Source: Thermohalobacter berrensis (GTDB lineage Bacteria; Bacillota; Clostridia; Tissierellales; Thermohalobacteraceae). From it: a stretch of 64,000 nucleotides of DNA. The notes under the pieces are model-generated. The model had not been told where the DNA came from and made no database searches. It saw only the letters and a program-made list of their open reading frames with translations. Location: contig NZ_MCIB01000012.1 of assembly GCF_003609645.1 (NCBI RefSeq), positions 1-64,000 of the forward strand, in the 5' to 3' direction. Positions 192-62,300 of the stretch are shown piece after piece; the first letter of the stretch is position 1; every line of letters begins with the position of its first letter. The position numbers and the translations under genes are program-made.

Positions 192-260
192 AAGTAACGG
201 ACATCGAAGCATTACTTCTAGGGATAAGTAACGGTCCACAAAGCCCAACTTCCTAGGCTA
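192..260 (+). repeat. 34-bp AGTAACGGAC repeat, 2 units
   Basis: Two degenerate units beginning AAAGTAACGGAC and AAGTAACGGTC, each ending in a CTAGG-type motif. This is the leftmost and shortest of nine arrays. It follows directly after the ACCACCAAAAACTG phrase, as do the arrays at 24696 and 62194. Confidence 0.75.
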
Positions 261-17520: not shown

Positions 17521-17685
17521 ACTTCTAGGTTTACTTACTAGGTTAAGTAACGGACATCAGAGCCTTACTCCCTAAGATAAGTAACGGACCTCAACGCATT
17601 ACTTCTTAGGCTTAGGTAACGGACACCTTAGTCTATCTTCCTAGGCATAGTAACGGACCACAAAGGTTCACTACTAAGGTTTAAA
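17521..17685 (+). repeat. 34-bp AGTAACGGAC repeat array, about 4 units
   Basis: Units begin at about 17544, 17578, 17613 and 17649, each with (A/G)GTAACGGAC. A degenerate partial unit precedes them. GC content is visibly higher than in flanking genes. Confidence 0.8.
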
Positions 17686-18896: not shown

Positions 18897-18976
18897 GGAT
18901 TAACCCTACCCACTAACCACCAAAAACTGTATTTAAAATACAATTGAGAATTGAGAATGGAGAATTGAGAATTATA

Positions 18977-19522
18977 GACCCTGAAGTCTTACTTCTCAGG
19001 CATAGTAACGGACATCAAAGTCTTACTCCCTAGGCTAAGTAACGGACGTCGAAGTCCGACTTCATTGGCCAAGTAACGGTCTGCAACGCTTTACTCCATA
19101 GGCCAAGTAACGGACCCCAGAGCCTCACTCCCTAGGTATAGTAACGGACATCCTAGACTCACTTCTTAGGCTTAAGTAACAGACCTCAAAGTTTTACTTC
19201 TTTGGTCAGGTAACGGACAGCGAAGTCTTACTCCCTAGGATAAGTAACGGACCTCTTAGACTCTCTTCTTTGGTCAAGTAACGGACATCAACGCATAACC
19301 TCTTAGGCCTAAGTAACGGACGTCGAAGTCCGACTTCATTGGCCAAGTAACAGACATCAACGCCTTACTCCTTAGGCTTAAGTAACGGACTACAAAGGCT
19401 AGACTTCTTAGGCTAAGTAACGGTCCCCGAAGGCTAGACGTCTAAGGCATAGTAACGGTCCTCGAAGGCTAGACATCTTAGGCATAGTAACGGACACCCT
19501 AGACTCTCTACCTAGGCATAAT
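18977..19522 (+). repeat. Largest 34-bp AGTAACGGAC repeat array, about 15 full units
   Basis: Head-to-tail units of 33-35 bases. Each starts (A/G)GTAAC(G/A)G(A/T)C and carries a variable part ending in (T/A)(T/A)GG(C/T). Two units are identical over the variable part (beginning GACGTCGAAGTCCGACTTC, near 19047 and 19320). Several variable parts have short internal dyads, for example GAAGT-ccg-ACTTC and GGCTAGACGTCTAAGG. There are no unique spacers, so it is not a CRISPR array. The array ends 27 bases before the start codon of the next gene. Confidence 0.85.
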
Positions 19523-19549: not shown

Positions 19550-20470
19550 ATGGTAAAAAGAATACTTGATGTAAATACATCTGATATGATAAAAATGGCT
19601 AAAAAAGACATAATAGAAAGCATAAAAGCAGCTGAAGGAAGGACAATAGTTTCAGAAGTAGTAGGAGTATTCCCACCTTTATTTGGAGATGTAAGTAATG
19701 TTGAATTAGTATGTGCCTTTGGAGCAGATATAGTCTTATTAAATTTTTATGACGTAAATGAACCTCAAGTTCTTGGACTTCCCATAGAAAAAGGTGAAAA
19801 AGTAGTAGAAGAGGTAAAAAAACTTACAGGAAGGTTTGTAGGTATAAACTTAGAACCTGTTGATCCAGAGGCAGACACAGTAGGAGAAAGAGTAAAACTA
19901 ACAGAAGGAAGAATTGCCACTCCTGAAAATGTCAAAAAAGCAATCGAACATGGAGTTGATATGATAGTTTTAACTGGTAATCCCAAAACTGGAGTTACCA
20001 ATAAAGAGATAATTAAATCAATTAAAAGTATAAGACAAGAAGTAGGTGACGAAATAATAATTATAGCCGGCAAAATGCATGGAGCTGGAAGTTCAAATGA
20101 ATTAGGTTCGGAAATTATGGATAAAGATATAGCACTAAAGTTTATAGAAGCCGGTAGTGATATTATATTATTACCTGCCCCTGGGACAGTACCAGGTATA
20201 ACAATTGAAAAGACAAAGGAAATAATAGATGCAGTACATAAAAAAGGTGCATTAGTTATGACAACAATAGGAACCTCTCAAGAAGGAGCAGATAAGCAAA
20301 CAATTAGAACTATAGCCTTAAATAGCAAAATGGCAGGAGCAGATATGCATCACCTAGGAGATGCCGGATATACAGGAGTAGCTGTACCAGAAAATATAAT
20401 GACCTACTCCATAGCAATAAGGGGAAAAAGACATACATATAGAAGAATGGCAAGGTCTATAAATAGATAA
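19550..20470 (+). CDS. TIM-barrel-like protein of unknown function (DUF7916-like)
   Basis: A 306-residue soluble protein, probably an alpha/beta barrel. Strand-like segments include GADIVLLNFYDVNEPQVLGLP, RFVGINLEPVDP, GVDMIVLTGNPKTGVTN, IIIIAGKMHGAG, GSDIILLPAPGTVPGIT and ALVMTTIGTSQEGAD, followed by an ADMHHLGDAGYTGVAVPENI tail. The strand-end acidic and glycine residues suggest an enzyme acting on a phosphorylated sugar or carboxylate. Relatives are sometimes labelled haloacid dehalogenase-like or PEP phosphonomutase-like, without experiment that I know of. The start follows AAGGAGG. A hairpin terminator follows. Its position after nagB hints at sugar metabolism, no more. Confidence 0.7.
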   Translation: MVKRILDVNTSDMIKMAKKDIIESIKAAEGRTIVSEVVGVFPPLFGDVSNVELVCAFGADIVLLNFYDVNEPQVLGLPIEKGEKVVEEVKKLTGRFVGINLEPVDPEADTVGERVKLTEGRIATPENVKKAIEHGVDMIVLTGNPKTGVTNKEIIKSIKSIRQEVGDEIIIIAGKMHGAGSSNELGSEIMDKDIALKFIEAGSDIILLPAPGTVPGITIEKTKEIIDAVHKKGALVMTTIGTSQEGADKQTIRTIALNSKMAGADMHHLGDAGYTGVAVPENIMTYSIAIRGKRHTYRRMARSINR

Positions 20471-21480: not shown

Positions 21481-21610
21481 ACTTCTAGGTTTACTTACTA
21501 GGTTAAGTAACGGACATCAGAGCCTTACTCCCTAAGATAAGTAACGGACCTCAACGCATTACTACTTTGGCTTAGGTAACGGACCACAAAGGTTCACTAC
21601 TAAGGTTTAA
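21481..21610 (+). repeat. 34-bp AGTAACGGAC repeat array, about 3 units
   Basis: Units begin at about 21504, 21538 and 21573. The third reads GGTAACGGACCACAAAGG, equivalent to a fusion of units 3 and 4 of the array at 17521, as expected after loss of one unit by slippage or unequal recombination. Confidence 0.8.
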
Positions 21611-21735: not shown

Positions 21736-22155
21736 ATGAATATATTAGAAGAAATAAAAAAAGTTTTATTAAGTAAAGAAAATATAGTTTTTGCATATGT
21801 ATTTGGTTCCTATGCTAGAAATACTATGACAGAAAATAGTGATATAGATATTGCAATATATCAAAAAGATAAAGAGATTAGTACAGATGATTATCTATCA
21901 CTAAAGGTAGAACTAGAAGATAAAACTAAAAAAGAAGTAGACCTTGTAATTTTAAATGAAGCAGACCCTTTAGTAAAACATGAAGTGTTTATAGATGGAA
22001 TAAGACTATTCTCTAGAGATGAAACCTTAGAAAGCAACTTTAAAGTACACACAGTCTTTGAATACGAAGACACAAAAAGATTTAGGGAAAAGTTTTATAA
22101 TAATATGATAGAGAAGTTAAGAAAAGAGGTTGAAAATGACAGTAAAGATAAATAA
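21736..22155 (+). CDS. MntA-like nucleotidyltransferase (MNT domain)
   Basis: A 139-residue minimal nucleotidyltransferase. The hallmark motif is at residues 24-38: GSYARNTMTENSDIDIAI, with G24-S25 and the metal-binding D36 and D38, and a third acidic strand in KKEVDLVILNE. Proteins of this type are antitoxins of type VII MntA-HepT systems, which modify a HEPN toxin with AMP. Here the next gene, 20 bases on, is not HepT but a four-helix-bundle protein. The start follows AGGATGG. The unit lies between 34-bp repeat arrays. Confidence 0.85.
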   Translation: MNILEEIKKVLLSKENIVFAYVFGSYARNTMTENSDIDIAIYQKDKEISTDDYLSLKVELEDKTKKEVDLVILNEADPLVKHEVFIDGIRLFSRDETLESNFKVHTVFEYEDTKRFREKFYNNMIEKLRKEVENDSKDK

Positions 22156-22175
22156 TAAATTTTAGGAGAAAATTA

Positions 22176-22577
22176 ATGAGTGATTTTAAAAAATTAGATG
22201 TATGGAAAAAAGCTTATAACCTTTCATTGGAAGTTTATAAAACAACTAAAAACTTTCCCTCAGATGAGACATTTGGTTTAACATCACAAATTAGAAGGGC
22301 AAGTGTTTCAATATCTACTAATATTGCTGAAGGTAACGGTAGGATTTATAGTAAAGAATATATAAAGTTTTTAAGTATAGCCAGAGGTTCAACAATGGAA
22401 GTAGAAAATCTCCTTATGTTAAGTAGAGATTTAGGTTATATTAACGATGAAACTTTTATAAAATTAGACAAAGAATGTAGAAATATAATTAACATGTTAT
22501 ATAAGCTTATAAAGTCAGTAAAGAAAGGTAATCAAAATAATAATTACATAAAAGAAGAAAATTTTTTGATAGAATAA
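22176..22577 (+). CDS. Four-helix-bundle protein (S23/Avd-like)
   Basis: A 133-residue protein of the four helix bundle/S23 family: SDFKKLDVWKKAYNLSLEVYK at the start, the conserved LTSQIRRASVSISTNIAEGNGR turn and EVENLLMLSRDLGYI. Relatives are found in intervening sequences of 23S rRNA genes and, as Avd, in diversity-generating retroelements, where they bind nucleic acid. It has no RX4H HEPN motif. It starts 20 bases after the MNT gene behind TAGGAGA, so the two are co-transcribed, which suggests a functional pair. Confidence 0.85.
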   Translation: MSDFKKLDVWKKAYNLSLEVYKTTKNFPSDETFGLTSQIRRASVSISTNIAEGNGRIYSKEYIKFLSIARGSTMEVENLLMLSRDLGYINDETFIKLDKECRNIINMLYKLIKSVKKGNQNNNYIKEENFLIE

Positions 22578-23024
22578 TATATAATAATATTTTTAAAATT
22601 AATGGTCTTCGAAGCCTAACTACTTAGGTCAAGTAACGGTCCTCGGTGGCTAGACGTCTAAGGCGTAGTAACGGACTTCGAAGCATGGCATCCTAGACAG
22701 AGTAACGGACTACAACGCATAACTACTTAGGCTTAAGTAACGGACCTCGAAGCTCTAACATCCCAGGCCAAGTAACGGACTTCAAAGCCTTACTTCTAAG
22801 GTCAAGTAACGGTCCTCTGTGGCTAGACGTCTTAGGCATAGTAACGGACTTCGTAGCTTGACTCCTTAGGTCGAGTAACGGTCCTCATCGGCTAGACGTC
22901 TAAGGTATAGTAACGGACGTCTTAGGATAGACATCATGGTCTAAGTAACGGACCTAAAAAGTCCGACTACATAGAATATCAATACAAAACACAAAACACG
23001 AAAAATTAAGGAGGTATAAACATA
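22578..23024. other. Repeat-only gap before fabZ
   Basis: No gene. A 34-bp repeat array (22601-22975) fills most of the gap; the rest is an AT-rich segment before it and an RBS (TAAGGAGG) after it. No clear separate promoter for fabZ is visible, so transcription may run through the array. Confidence 0.75.
22601..22975 (+). repeat. 34-bp AGTAACGGAC repeat array, about 10 units
   Basis: Head-to-tail units in the same orientation as the flanking genes. Variants such as CTCGGTGGCTAGACGTCTAAGG and CTCATCGGCTAGACGTCTAAGG recur within the array. It ends 49 bases before the fabZ start. Confidence 0.85.
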
Positions 23025-23456
23025 ATGTTAAACAACATCGAAATCCAAAACATCATTCCACATCGCTATCCATTCCTTTTAGTAGATAAAATAGTTGAAA
23101 TGGAGCCTGGTAAAAAAGCAGTAGGAATAAAAAATGTAACAATAAACGAACCATTCTTCCAAGGACACTTTCCAGGTAACCCACTAATGCCAGGAGTACT
23201 TATAGTAGAGGCTATGGCTCAGGTAGGAGCAGTAGCAGTAATGAGTCTAGAAGAAAACAAAGATAAATTAGCTGTATTTACAGGTATAGATAAGGTAAGA
23301 TTTAAAAAGCAAGTAAGACCTGGGGATACGCTAAGAATGGAAGTAGAACTAGTAACTATGAGAAGAGGAATAGGAAAAGCCCAAGCAGTAGCCTATGTAG
23401 GCGATGAAGTTGCTTGTAAAGGAACATTAATGTTTGGAATAGTGGAGAATGAGTAA
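23025..23456 (+). CDS. fabZ: 3-hydroxyacyl-[ACP] dehydratase
   Basis: FabZ dehydrates 3-hydroxyacyl-ACP in type II fatty acid synthesis. 143 residues, hot-dog fold. Catalytic His in [14 protein letters not shown] and the helix motif [24 protein letters not shown] with the catalytic Glu. AAGGAGG precedes the ATG. It is isolated from other fab genes and sits between repeat arrays and toxin-antitoxin-like genes, an unusual setting for a core gene. Confidence 0.96.
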
Positions 23457-23704
23457 AAAGTTAGTAGCATGTAGTTAGTAGGAAATACAGTTGTTAGCTC
23501 TCAGTTCTTAGTTCTTAGAAAAAAAGACATTGTTAGTTGTTTTGCTAGAAGCTGAGAGCTAGGAACTAAGAGCTGCTTTTAAAATAACGGACCTCGAAGC
23601 CTTAACATCTTAGGTACAGTAACGGTCCCCATAGGTTAGACGTCCTCGGCATAGTAACGGACCACAGAACTTTACTCCTAGGCACAGTAAAGGAAGGATT
23701 AAAA
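23457..23704. other. Repeat gap with inverted family-E motif
   Basis: 23489-23580 holds CTCTCAGTTCTTAGTTCTTAG and, further on, GCTGAGAGCTAGGAACTAAG, which are roughly inverted copies of each other and could pair. It is followed by three 34-bp units. Confidence 0.7.
23582..23692 (+). repeat. 34-bp AGTAACGGAC repeat array, about 3 units
   Basis: Units begin near 23583, 23618 and 23652. The array runs to within 13 bases of the next start codon; its last partial unit (CACAGTAAAGGAAGG) supplies the apparent ribosome binding site. Confidence 0.75.
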
Positions 23705-24433
23705 ATGAAAAATAGATACGGAATTTCCAAAAAAGATTTTTATAAAATAATAAACGTTTTCAAAAAATATTCAGACATAATTGAAAAGGCTATTTTATTC
23801 GGTTCAAGGGCTAGGGGGGATTATAAAGAAACATCTGACATAGATATAGCCATAAAATTTAGAAAAGATAATCATCTCATTTATGAAATTAAAGAAGATA
23901 TTGAAAACAAAGATATAATATACACATTTGACATAGTAGATTATGCAAAAATACATAATGAAAAGCTAAAGAGATACATAGATAATGAAGGTAAAGTTAT
24001 GTTTTTAACCAGTAAAAAGGGAGAGGTTTTAGTGAACCTAAATAAAATAAAGGACAAACTTGAAGATTTAAAAAAAGCCTTTAAAAAGTTACAAGAGGTA
24101 ACAGAAAGAGACTATTTAGAAGATGATATTGTATTAGATGCTGCCATACAAAGGTTTGAATTTACATACGAATTGTCATGGAAGCTGATGAAAGCTTATC
24201 TAGAATATAATGGAAATTTGAAAGCTACTAGTCCTAGAAAAGCAATAAAAGAGGCTTTTAAAGAAGGATTAATAGAAGATGGGGAAATATGGCTAAAAAT
24301 GCTTCAAGATAGAAATAAAACATCTCATACATATAACCAAGAAAGTGCTATAGAAATATTTAATAATGTTAAAAATGAATACATCCATTCCTTTGAAAAG
24401 TTTATAATAAATGTTGAGAGGGAAATGGACTAA
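23705..24433 (+). CDS. Fused MNT nucleotidyltransferase-HEPN (HI0074/HepT-like) protein
   Basis: A 242-residue fusion. Residues 1-100 are a minimal nucleotidyltransferase with GSRARGDYKETSDIDIAI (G33-S34, D45, D47) and a third acidic strand in IIYTFDIVDY. Residues about 105-242 resemble the HI0074 substrate-binding/HepT family and carry RNKTSHTY (R203, H208, Y210), the RX4HXY motif of HEPN toxins. In separate MntA-HepT systems the MNT protein AMPylates the toxin at that tyrosine, so this looks like toxin and antitoxin in one chain. The joint, KKGEVLVNLNKIKDKLEDLKK, gives a direct read-through with no frameshift. Confidence 0.85.
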   Translation: MKNRYGISKKDFYKIINVFKKYSDIIEKAILFGSRARGDYKETSDIDIAIKFRKDNHLIYEIKEDIENKDIIYTFDIVDYAKIHNEKLKRYIDNEGKVMFLTSKKGEVLVNLNKIKDKLEDLKKAFKKLQEVTERDYLEDDIVLDAAIQRFEFTYELSWKLMKAYLEYNGNLKATSPRKAIKEAFKEGLIEDGEIWLKMLQDRNKTSHTYNQESAIEIFNNVKNEYIHSFEKFIINVEREMD

Positions 24434-24695: not shown

Positions 24696-24834
24696 AAAGT
24701 AACGGACACCTTAGACTCTCTTCCAAGGCTAAGTAACGGACTACGTAGCCTTGACTTCTTTGGTCAAGTAACGGTCCTCATTGGCTAGACGTCTAAGGCA
24801 AAGTAACGGACATCTTGGTTTGTCTTCTTAGGCT
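24696..24834 (+). repeat. 34-bp AGTAACGGAC repeat array, 4 units
   Basis: Units at about 24697, 24731, 24766 and 24801. It directly follows an ACCACCAAAAACTG phrase, the same junction as at 190 and 62190. Confidence 0.8.
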
Positions 24835-24923
24835 AAAATAAAAAATTCATCTCTTCGACAAAATTCGATGGAAAGATAACCTAATATACTATATTATAAA
24901 TTATGTGTTTAATCACAAAGGAT

Positions 24924-25080: not shown

Positions 25081-25299
25081 TCTAAGTAACGGACAACAAA
25101 GGCTATCACTTCTTAGGCTTAAGTAACGGACCACAGAGCTCTACTGCTTAGGTCAAGTAACGGACATCATAGGGTTTGACTTCTTAGGCTTGAGTAACGG
25201 ACTACGTAGCATTGACTCCTTAGGTCTAAGTAACGGACCCCAAAGCATTACTCCCTGGGATAAAGTAACGGACATCCTAGACTGTCTTCTTAGGCCAAA
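25081..25299 (+). repeat. 34-bp AGTAACGGAC repeat array, about 6 units
   Basis: Head-to-tail units in the same orientation as all other arrays, bounded on the right by an ACCAACCACCAAAAACTG phrase. Confidence 0.8.
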
Positions 25300-57345: not shown

Positions 57346-58668
57346 GTGAATAAGGAAGCTTTGAAGAAAAGTGTTTGTAAAGCTATTGATAACAATGCTG
57401 AATATATAATTAACATAGGAAAAAGAATTTATGATAATCCGGAGCTTGGATACAAAGAAAATTTTGCTACAAAACTTGTTTTAAAAGAATTTAAAAGGTT
57501 AGGGTTAAAAACTAAAGAAAATATTGCAGTAACAGGTTGTAAAGGTATTATAAAACATAATGATATTGGGCCAACAATAGGAGTTATGGGGGAATTAGAC
57601 GCTGTAATCTGCAAAGAACACCCAGATGCTAATAAAGAAACCGGGGCAATACATGCTTGTGGTCATAATATTCAAATAGCTGGAATGCTTGGAACGGCTA
57701 TAGGGTTAATAAGTTCTGGAGTTTTAGAAAAACTTAATGGTAATGTAGAGTTTATAGCAGTTCCTGCTGAAGAATATGTAGAATTAGAATATAGATCGAG
57801 AATAAAGGATGAAGGAAAGATAAACTTTTTTGGAGGGAAACAAGAACTTATATATAGAGGGGAAATTGATAGCTTAGATATAGCTATAATGTTCCATTCA
57901 TTAGATTTAAGTTCTCAAGGAAAAAAAGCTCTAATAGGGGGAAGTGGTAATGGATTTATAGGAAAAAAGGTTAAATTTATTGGGAAGGAGTCTCATGCTG
58001 GTGGTGCACCAGAAGAAGGCATAAACGCCTTAAATGCAGCAATGCTTGCTATAAATAATATTAATGCACAAAGAGAAACCTTTAAAGATGAAGATAAAAT
58101 AAGAGTCCATCCTATAATAACTAAAGGGGGAGATATAGTAAATATTGTACCTGCTGATGTGAGGATGGAAACCTATGTTAGAGGGAAAACAATTGAAAGT
58201 ATATTAGATGCTAATAAGAAGGTAAACCGTTCATTAATTGCAGGAGCTAAAGCTGTAGGTGCTAATATTGAAATTAATGAGATACCAGGATATTTACCTC
58301 TTTTAAACAATAATGAGCTTGATGAGGTATTTAAAGATAATCTGATTAATTTTATTGATAAAGAGGATATAATGGTTGGTGGAGAATTTGCTGGTTCCTT
58401 TGATTTTGGAGATGTTTCCCATTTGATTCCAAGCCTTCATCCTTTTATAGGAGGAGTTAAAGGCAATTTACATACAAGAGACTTTAAAATTGAAGATCCA
58501 TATCTAGCATATATTGTTCCAGCAAAGGCAATAGCATTAACAATTATTGATTTGCTTTATGATGATGCGAAATTAGGGAAAGAGATAATAGATAACTTTA
58601 AACCAAAGATGTCAAAGGATGAATATATAGACTTCTTATTTAGCGTATCAAAAAACATAATAAAATGA
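57346..58668 (+). CDS. M20 family amidohydrolase (aminoacylase/AbgB-like)
   Basis: About 440 residues. The GTG at 57346 is preferred because GGAGGG directly touches the in-frame ATG at 57337. M20D-type motifs: RIYDNPELGYKENFATKLV, MGELDAVIC, THACGHN-like AIHACGHNIQIAGMLG (metal ligands), VPAEEYVELEYR with the catalytic Glu pair, and GKESHAGGAPEEGINALNAAM. It hydrolyses an N-acyl or aminobenzoyl amide of an amino acid, probably imported by the DUF3100 transporter. Its TGA stop lies inside the first of two tandem palindromes. Confidence 0.88.
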   Translation: MNKEALKKSVCKAIDNNAEYIINIGKRIYDNPELGYKENFATKLVLKEFKRLGLKTKENIAVTGCKGIIKHNDIGPTIGVMGELDAVICKEHPDANKETGAIHACGHNIQIAGMLGTAIGLISSGVLEKLNGNVEFIAVPAEEYVELEYRSRIKDEGKINFFGGKQELIYRGEIDSLDIAIMFHSLDLSSQGKKALIGGSGNGFIGKKVKFIGKESHAGGAPEEGINALNAAMLAINNINAQRETFKDEDKIRVHPIITKGGDIVNIVPADVRMETYVRGKTIESILDANKKVNRSLIAGAKAVGANIEINEIPGYLPLLNNNELDEVFKDNLINFIDKEDIMVGGEFAGSFDFGDVSHLIPSLHPFIGGVKGNLHTRDFKIEDPYLAYIVPAKAIALTIIDLLYDDAKLGKEIIDNFKPKMSKDEYIDFLFSVSKNIIK

Positions 58669-58724
58669 AACGCCGAACCGGGTTCGTTGTTCCAATGAAA
58701 CGCCGAACCGGGTTCGTTGTTCCA
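58666..58724. repeat. Two tandem family-D palindromes
   Basis: Two identical 29-base copies (58666-58694 and 58696-58724), each with GAAACGCCGAACCGGGTTCG and a TTGTTCCA end. A decayed third copy is visible near 58752-58778. Confidence 0.85.
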
Positions 58725-58794
58725 ATATCTCAACAACTAGAAAGCCAAAGGACAACGCCGAATCGTATTGACCGTTCTACTATTGTTTACCCTA

Positions 58795-60382: not shown

Positions 60383-60454
60383 GTTGAGGGATTACGAATC
60401 CCTCAACAACTGGAACGCTGAACCGCTGGAACGCTGAACCGGGTTCGGCGTTCC
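60383..60454. repeat. Inverted family-B hairpin plus family-D palindromes
   Basis: GTTGAGGGATT-acg-AATCCCTCAAC (60383-60407) is in the opposite orientation to the preceding hairpin. A broken family-D copy (60412-60426) abuts a full one (60428-60454: GGAACGCtGAACC-g-GGTTCgGCGTTCC). Confidence 0.75.
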
Positions 60455-61685: not shown

Positions 61686-61713
61686 TTGAAAAAGGAATCG
61701 AGTCTTTATTTAA

Positions 61714-61768
61714 GGAACGCTGAACCGGGTTCGTTGTTCCAGGAACGCTGAACCGGGTTCGTTGTTCC
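61714..61768. repeat. Two tandem family-D palindromes after fic
   Basis: Identical 27-base copies (61714-61740 and 61742-61768), GGAACGCTGAACCGGGTTCG plus TTGTTCC, followed by AGAGCTTTTTTC. Confidence 0.85.
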
Positions 61769-61848
61769 AGAGCTTTTTTCTTGATTATTTTTTCCTATAA
61801 TGGGTAATTATATATAGAAACATTTTATAAAATTTAGGAGGGATCTAT

Positions 61849-62193: not shown

Positions 62194-62300
62194 GTAGTAA
62201 CGGACCACAAAGCATCACTTCTAAGGTAAAGTAACGGACATCCTAGTTTATCTTCTTTGGTCAAAGAAACGGTCCTCCTAAAATTATCTTCTTCGGCTAT
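62194..62300 (+). repeat. 34-bp AGTAACGGAC repeat array, 3 units
   Basis: Units near 62196, 62230 and 62264 (the last decayed, AGAAACGGTC). It follows the ACCACCAAAAACTG phrase, as at 190 and 24696. Confidence 0.75.

Follow-up and report, generated by a model that had tools for sequence, protein, structure and literature searches.

A possible DNA recognition and exchange site in the constant core of an intergenic repeat family of Thermohalobacter berrensis

Introduction

What maintains a sequence of about ten bases that recurs almost unchanged between the genes of a bacterium, unit after unit, whilst the bases between its copies differ? This question is raised by a 64-kb stretch of DNA from Thermohalobacter berrensis (NZ_MCIB01000012.1, positions 1 to 64,000; hereafter the window), which lies within contig C12 of a 2.76-Mb genome assembled in 40 contigs. 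An earlier note described nine arrays of a degenerate tandem repeat in the window and offered three roles for them, namely a protein-binding array, a structured RNA leader or spacer, or a recombination-prone satellite. The intergenic DNA of bacteria is usually short. The repeats analysed here extend the gaps at operon boundaries by several hundred bases, chiefly within a single chromosomal sector, and their ten-base core is conserved some five to seven times more strongly than the sequence around it. A protein that reads this core would represent a new site-specific system discovered from sequence alone; without such a protein, the family would be a clear example of a bacterial satellite that evolves cassette by cassette. 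Our own reading, which we regard as evenly poised, is that these repeats form a mosaic satellite, intergenic, non-coding and specific to the lineage, and that their core is a site of both DNA recognition and exchange.

The repeat unit

The window contains 49 copies of the core AGTAACGGAC with at most one mismatch, every one of them on the + strand, where 1.20 were expected and no more than four arose in any of 100 shuffles. All nine of the arrays first described were found where they had been placed (Table 1), including the main array with its approximately 15 units; Tandem Repeats Finder recovers three of the nine (at about 18984, 22600 and 25081). A chain was defined as a series of cores 30-40 bp apart, with at most two mismatches and including at least one exact core, and in the genome stretches read for chaining this gave 57 chains containing 403 units.

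Table 1. Repeat arrays and the adjoining heptamer module in the window
Feature	Position	Strand	Remarks
2-unit array	192..260	+	cores at 193 and 227
4-unit array	17521..17685	+	core-less partial unit ahead; partly duplicated at 21481
Heptamer module (AATTGAG)n	18942..18973	+	directly ahead of main array; recurs with arrays
15-unit array	18977..19522	+	leading partial unit; last unit ends 31 bp before start codon at 19550
3-unit array	21481..21610	+	homologous to array at 17521
10-unit array	22601..22977	+	leading partial unit
4-unit array	23582..23719	+	last unit decayed, runs into start codon
4-unit array	24696..24835	+	
6-unit array	25081..25299	+	units of 34-37 bp
3-unit array	62194..62300	+	last unit decayed

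The period of 34 bp that had been described applies to 172 of the 346 internal units, the others measuring 35 bp (144 units), 36 bp (19), 33 bp (7) or 37 bp (4). The almost unchanged core is more precisely AGTAACGG(A/T)C, with T at the alternative position in 64 of the 346 units. Among the 23 bases described as variable, four positions are at least 88% constant: alignment columns 13 (C), 18 (G), 21 (T) and 32 (G) reach 88-99% in the 346 internal units and, as column 14 is a gap column, these correspond to unit positions 13, 17, 20 and 31. Alignment of the window units shows two invariant C's and a closing GG in addition. The sequence between cores, 23-27 bp in length, is diverse with a loose grammar, and 317 of the 346 internal units are distinct. 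Short dyads, which had been taken for a feature of the family, are confined to particular units, and the reported GC enrichment is borne out, with array units at 44.7% G+C against 30.6% for the contig.

Position and orientation relative to genes

Overlap with coding sequence was assessed against a greedy set of open reading frames of at least 80 aa, tolerating an overlap of up to 40 bp at array ends. That no array lies within a gene is correct for 55 of the 57 chains; the remaining two overlap one opposite-strand open reading frame of 115 aa. Similarly, the common orientation of arrays and genes holds within the window, but elsewhere five of the 57 chains (three arrays) oppose the main coding strand of their contig, and one extra + pair occurs on C39, where the other arrays are on the - strand. 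The downstream gene lies on the strand of the array for 49 of the 56 chains with a known downstream neighbour, and both flanking genes agree with the array strand in 37 chains. Orientation to genes and orientation to replication are inseparable here, because the agreement between arrays and genes is about the level that follows from coding-strand bias alone (90.7% on C12 and 87.4% on C5, calculated from coding lengths). Four chains, belonging to three arrays (C12 92742, C12 103049 and C40 94500/94811), are opposed to both neighbouring genes. Twelve chains end at most 65 bp upstream of a same-strand start codon, and the distance from an array to the next gene start extends from a 14-bp overlap to more than 600 bp.

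The enlargement of intergenic DNA, which fits insertion of the repeats and favours our reading, is evident from four operon-boundary gaps that contain arrays, of 876, 1203, 786 and 1334 bp, compared with 162-221, 128-294, 176-183 and 397-504 bp in relatives, where gap sizes are estimates from tblastn ends. At three further array gaps it is the relative's gap that is larger (7625, 3137 and 2571 bp), presumably because other genes are situated there. Promoter scores, examined for a fixed position relative to the arrays, are noisy in this AT-rich DNA. Between arrays of the window, positions 21736-24433 encode a nucleotidyltransferase (Polbeta), a 23S rRNA intervening-sequence protein and a protein with Polbeta and NTase_sub_bind/HepT-like domains. 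Gene types such as these are frequently associated with toxin-antitoxin modules.

Distribution within the genome and beyond it

Exact tandem pairs of the core occur 161 times in forward and 60 times in reverse orientation genome-wide; a reversed control pattern does not occur. With the exception of two forward pairs, these 221 pairs could be placed, and the 219 placed pairs are found in 12 of the 40 contigs, which together comprise ~766 kb or 27.7% of the genome. The distribution is uneven, with 57 pairs on C5, 55 on C12, 25 on C20, 24 on C40, 23 on C39 and 22 on C18, followed by C25 (4), C4 (3), C8 (2), C26 (2), C13 (1) and C22 (1). Three listings of sub-patterns (59, 59 and 90 matches) added no contig, and the 526-kb contig C1 has no pairs among the matches listed.

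Contigs were placed relative to one another with chimeric marker queries, relying on family-level synteny with relatives. Markers from C12 (fabZ), C25, C18, C28, C5, C26 and C40 follow in this order on a single contig of the relative G002, and one contig of the relative G001 carries gatB and purH of C39 and then secA and fabZ of C12. By synteny, C39-C12-C25-C18-C28-C5-C26-C40 would form a stretch of ~508 kb, along which GC skew, gene strand and marker strands agree with a single replication direction. This stretch contains 48 of the 57 chains (C12 21, C5 12, and C18, C39 and C40 five each) and, in seven of its contigs, 187 of the 219 placed pairs, the other 32 being outside it or unmapped; C28 (6 kb) has no core, though it lies inside. 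Outside the stretch, C20, C8, C4 and C13 correspond to different contigs of G001, and the trmB marker of C12 maps to G001:C1, apart from the remaining C12 markers. Of the 28 contigs that have no placed pairs, 16 were represented by markers, and 14 of these (not C1 and C29) were matched in G001, some only as distant copies; only C28 among them falls on the contigs that correspond to the sector, G001:C4 and C5. In the relative G017, seven sector markers and the C8 marker lie at 0.48-0.88 Mb, with gyrA at 7 kb; the same interval holds the marker of C7, on which no arrays are listed, and fabZ of C12 (2.885 Mb) and the C4 marker (3.055 Mb) are outside the main cluster.

Beyond this genome, the tandem core pattern was present in one of 100 relatives searched, and a profile of 40 window units, run as a fast search to which weak matches may be lost, matched one genome out of 249 from 92 genera of the order; in both cases the match was the source genome itself. 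Ten core and module patterns have no occurrence in 200 kb from relatives. A scan of one genome per species (84,980 species), in which records of this or a very near genome were possibly left out, matched 39 stretches; as we estimate ~80 by chance, given 18 fixed bases, 11 gap lengths and 257 billion bases, these matches do not point to relatives. Nine of these stretches were inspected (six from Halobacillus and one each from Bhargavaea, Macrococcus and Psychrobacter). The Halobacillus loci (four in H. halophilus and two in H. alkaliphilus) belong to a dispersed element in which two AGTAACGG cores, spaced 36-37 bp apart, enclose a conserved middle; repetition may here have amplified a coincidence. 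In Bhargavaea cecembensis, 730-820 of the inspected locus is a tandem repeat of 40 bp, GGAGTAACGGACTGC..., the middle part of which differs. The initial impression that no described family has this core stands for the searches made of Rfam, of full-text papers and of genomes; judged by titles and the openings of abstracts, none of the papers retrieved, including those that contain the letters of the core, describes this repeat.

Constraint on the core and exchange between arrays

The constancy of the core was measured in homologous composite regions of at least 110 bp and at least 88% identity. Differences were found at nine of 569 core sites (1.6%), 105 of 961 sites of the variable part (10.9%) and 523 of 7015 sites in flanking repeats outside the arrays (7.5%), with 171 mixed-class sites (16 differences) set aside; homologous pairs are non-independent, the counts for the variable part take in some non-orthologous units, and acceptance of core sites with at most two mismatches introduces a slight bias toward conserved cores. 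When the doubled rows of C40 94811 and rows with three or fewer variable sites are removed, a hand sum gives five of 363 core sites and 75 of 717 variable sites; a rate of 10% would give ~36 differences in 363 core sites. A count of differences in near-identical units points in the same direction, but true copies and units merely alike in grammar are mixed in it, and we place no weight on it. We take the constraint to reflect either purifying selection or the selective copying of intact cores, between which the data do not distinguish. Core decay is concentrated at the edges of arrays: in chains of at least five units, and ignoring position 9, the core has at least one mismatch in 15 of 187 interior units, nine of 40 first units, ten of 40 second units, three of 40 last-but-one units and 15 of 40 last units.

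Units are also shared between arrays. There are 16 extra exact copies among the 34-mers and 11 among the 35-mers, compared with means of 0-0.15 and a maximum of two in 20 draws from Markov models of order 0-3; near-identical pairs of 35-mers (158 observed, up to 149 under the order-3 model) are largely explained by the grammar. Exact cross-array pairs number 29; in 17 of them a neighbour is similar too, which indicates duplicated blocks, and the other 12 have no neighbour of at least 80% identity. Both neighbours are visible in seven of these 12, two of which join C40 arrays that have a block in common elsewhere; the other five (four unit sequences) join arrays without a listed block in common. 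Beside near-identical units whose neighbours are dissimilar, identity in the adjoining variable part begins only slightly above background, at 0.580 vs 0.529 downstream (67 pairs) and 0.576 vs 0.509 upstream (46 pairs), and a single heptamer block is joined through five single cores to five left sides that all differ. This drop in identity at the adjoining variable part, together with the single-core junctions, places breakpoints in the core, both for units and for larger modules.

Neighbouring units within an array are, in turn, unlike one another. Their variable parts are 0.485 identical, as against 0.4995 between arrays, and none of 289 adjacent pairs is at least 90% alike, where the rate between arrays (333 of 58351) predicts ~1.6. 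At lags of two to four units, 13 of 570 pairs reach 90%, indicating some multi-unit duplication.

Two of the three roles originally offered are touched by these findings. The recombination-prone satellite keeps its support, units and modules being exchanged with breakpoints at the core, and so does the protein-binding array, through the constraint on the core in homologous copies; no binding protein was found. The most likely explanation, in our view, is that the core would be a sequence-specific DNA recognition site for a putative cellular protein, with protein binding as the probable source of its constancy. Arrays would then gain and lose units, as well as larger heptamer or hairpin modules, and swap them with one another at breakpoints inside the core, an exchange that may have spread the family through the gaps at operon boundaries, mainly of one chromosome sector. 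The protein may organise this sector or may do no more than drive the exchange.

A possible satellite without function and a possible mark of a chromosome sector

The plainest account, which we hold to be possible but less probable than our own reading, is that of a neutral or selfish satellite, spreading along with heptamer modules through ectopic recombination and template switching, in which the apparent conservation of the core would be due only to the fact that intact-core units are those that recombine and are copied, and the host gains nothing. It would fit the confinement of the family to one genome of the order and the mosaic junctions, and it gains further from the heptamer modules and small hairpins that adjoin the arrays and that, in the stretches read, are distributed alike. 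These companion modules also occur on C14 and C29, contigs without arrays, and a GGGACGG-type module also on C1, C17 and C23; one module counted genome-wide has 35 matches, on C5, C12, C14, C18, C20, C25, C39 and C40. Since the modules share the uneven distribution, the unevenness may stem from repeat spreading rather than from a function of the core. The relatives G001 and G002, moreover, have different heptamer repeats of their own (CTAGTACC, ACAGGGA and ACGAATA types) in the same chromosomal sector. Against a satellite of this kind stand the strength of the constraint on the core, which is some five- to seven-fold, and the dissimilarity of adjacent units described above. Units with a GAACCGGGTTC palindrome are also found in tandem, at 58664-58726, 60410-60441 and 61713-61770 of the window; in the stretches read this repeat occurs only on C12, C5, C18, C20 and C39.

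Recognition of the core by a protein takes its boldest form in a sector-organising protein, for which MatP and its matS sites provide a precedent. Arrays bound by such a protein would organise or tether a sector of one replichore, in the manner of MatP/matS but with tandem sites. The concentration of placed pairs in the ~508-kb stretch is consistent with this proposal, as are the 52 of 57 chains that run along the main coding strand of their contig. Nevertheless, we think it improbable, as pairs are also present on C20, C4, C8, C13 and C22, the synteny of the sector is broken in G042, the other modules have the same distribution, and relatives possess the same sector without arrays. The fuller version of this idea, in which a polar tandem protein-binding satellite would mark one replichore sector, with 34-bp cassettes exchanged at the core, as an analogue of a satellite-defined domain, is in our judgement just as doubtful.

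RNA structure, CRISPR, slippage and mobile elements

The remaining role originally offered, a structured RNA leader, finds no support in the folding analyses and was rejected. In the first 24 listed chains with at least five units, all outside the window and represented by their first 180 bases, folding compared with dinucleotide shuffles gave mean z scores of +0.32 and +0.75 on the two strands, meaning that the arrays fold less well than shuffled sequence. RNAalifold predicted no pairs in 40 window units, and Rfam has no gathering matches in the window. For the most part, columns with strong mutual information are adjacent to one another or mirror unit types; in the 35-mers some columns pair above expectation (for example 23 and 30, 0.61 vs 0.34), and inspection of the columns for covariation revealed no nested helix. 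Folding above the level of shuffles, the lack of a helix and the four chains opposed to both neighbouring genes suggest that the constraint on the core acts on DNA rather than RNA.

An RNA-binding role is conceivable without structure, since the 12 chains that end close to same-strand start codons could be transcribed. A transcribed leader or spacer RNA might then bind a regulator via its unpaired repeats, as proposed for TAACTGA repeats, and the unstructured units would be accessible to it. The varying distance to the next gene start and the four opposed chains argue against this explanation, to which we assign the slightest likelihood of those considered.

A CRISPR array was rejected because the supposed spacers have a common grammar with constant positions and the 57 chains are scattered across many gaps, and a slippage minisatellite (VNTR) because adjacent units are no more similar than units from different arrays. 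In viral contigs, 14 stretches have the tandem pattern, with one match each, and none of the seven inspected is family-like. The ends of the arrays, read by eye, have no evident terminal inverted repeats, and the arrays carry no open reading frame. The genome has two PF00589 integrase matches, compared with five to six in relatives, so no dedicated tyrosine recombinase is evident.

Relation to known repeat systems

The nearest known kind of repeat is the dRS3/NIME mosaic of Neisseria, followed by the TAACTGA heptamers. There, dRS3 is a 20-bp repeat of almost 700 copies with inverted ends, ATTCCC(N8)GGGAAT, which together with variable RS repeats of 30-160 bp forms intergenic arrays of 200-2700 bp, and which as the constant repeat is a recombination target (PMC3898611). 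In common with these mosaics, the family studied here forms intergenic arrays in which variable segments separate the copies of a short constant repeat. It differs from them in sequence, as its AGTAACGG(A/T)C core is non-palindromic and unlike dRS3, and in its spacer of 23-27 bp, its near-fixed period, its mostly common orientation and its concentration in one sector. The TAACTGA heptamers of Beggiatoaceae and cyanobacteria are described as intergenic direct repeats that often lie near start codons and whose downstream genes show no functional pattern (PMC4679880). The two families are alike as intergenic direct repeats, and similar heptamer modules adjoin the arrays here; however, the units there are exact and 7 bp long, whereas here they are degenerate, 34/35 bp long and built on a fixed core. 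Cyanobacterial small dispersed repeats and heptamer STRRs likewise consist of nested short repeats in intergenic DNA; to our knowledge they have no tandem grammar of constant core and variable spacer.

A likeness to REP/RAYT systems is provided by four Y1_Tnp (PF01797) matches in the genome, two of which have GGGACGG-type sequence within ~0.5 kb; in contrast to those systems, the array units are non-palindromic, and no cores are present in the loci around the four Y1_Tnp genes. The two RAYT-like matches near GGGACGG-type sequence are at C5:22273 and C1:268. At the former, this sequence is inverted on both sides of the gene, and it also occurs in the window at ~17705 and ~18840.
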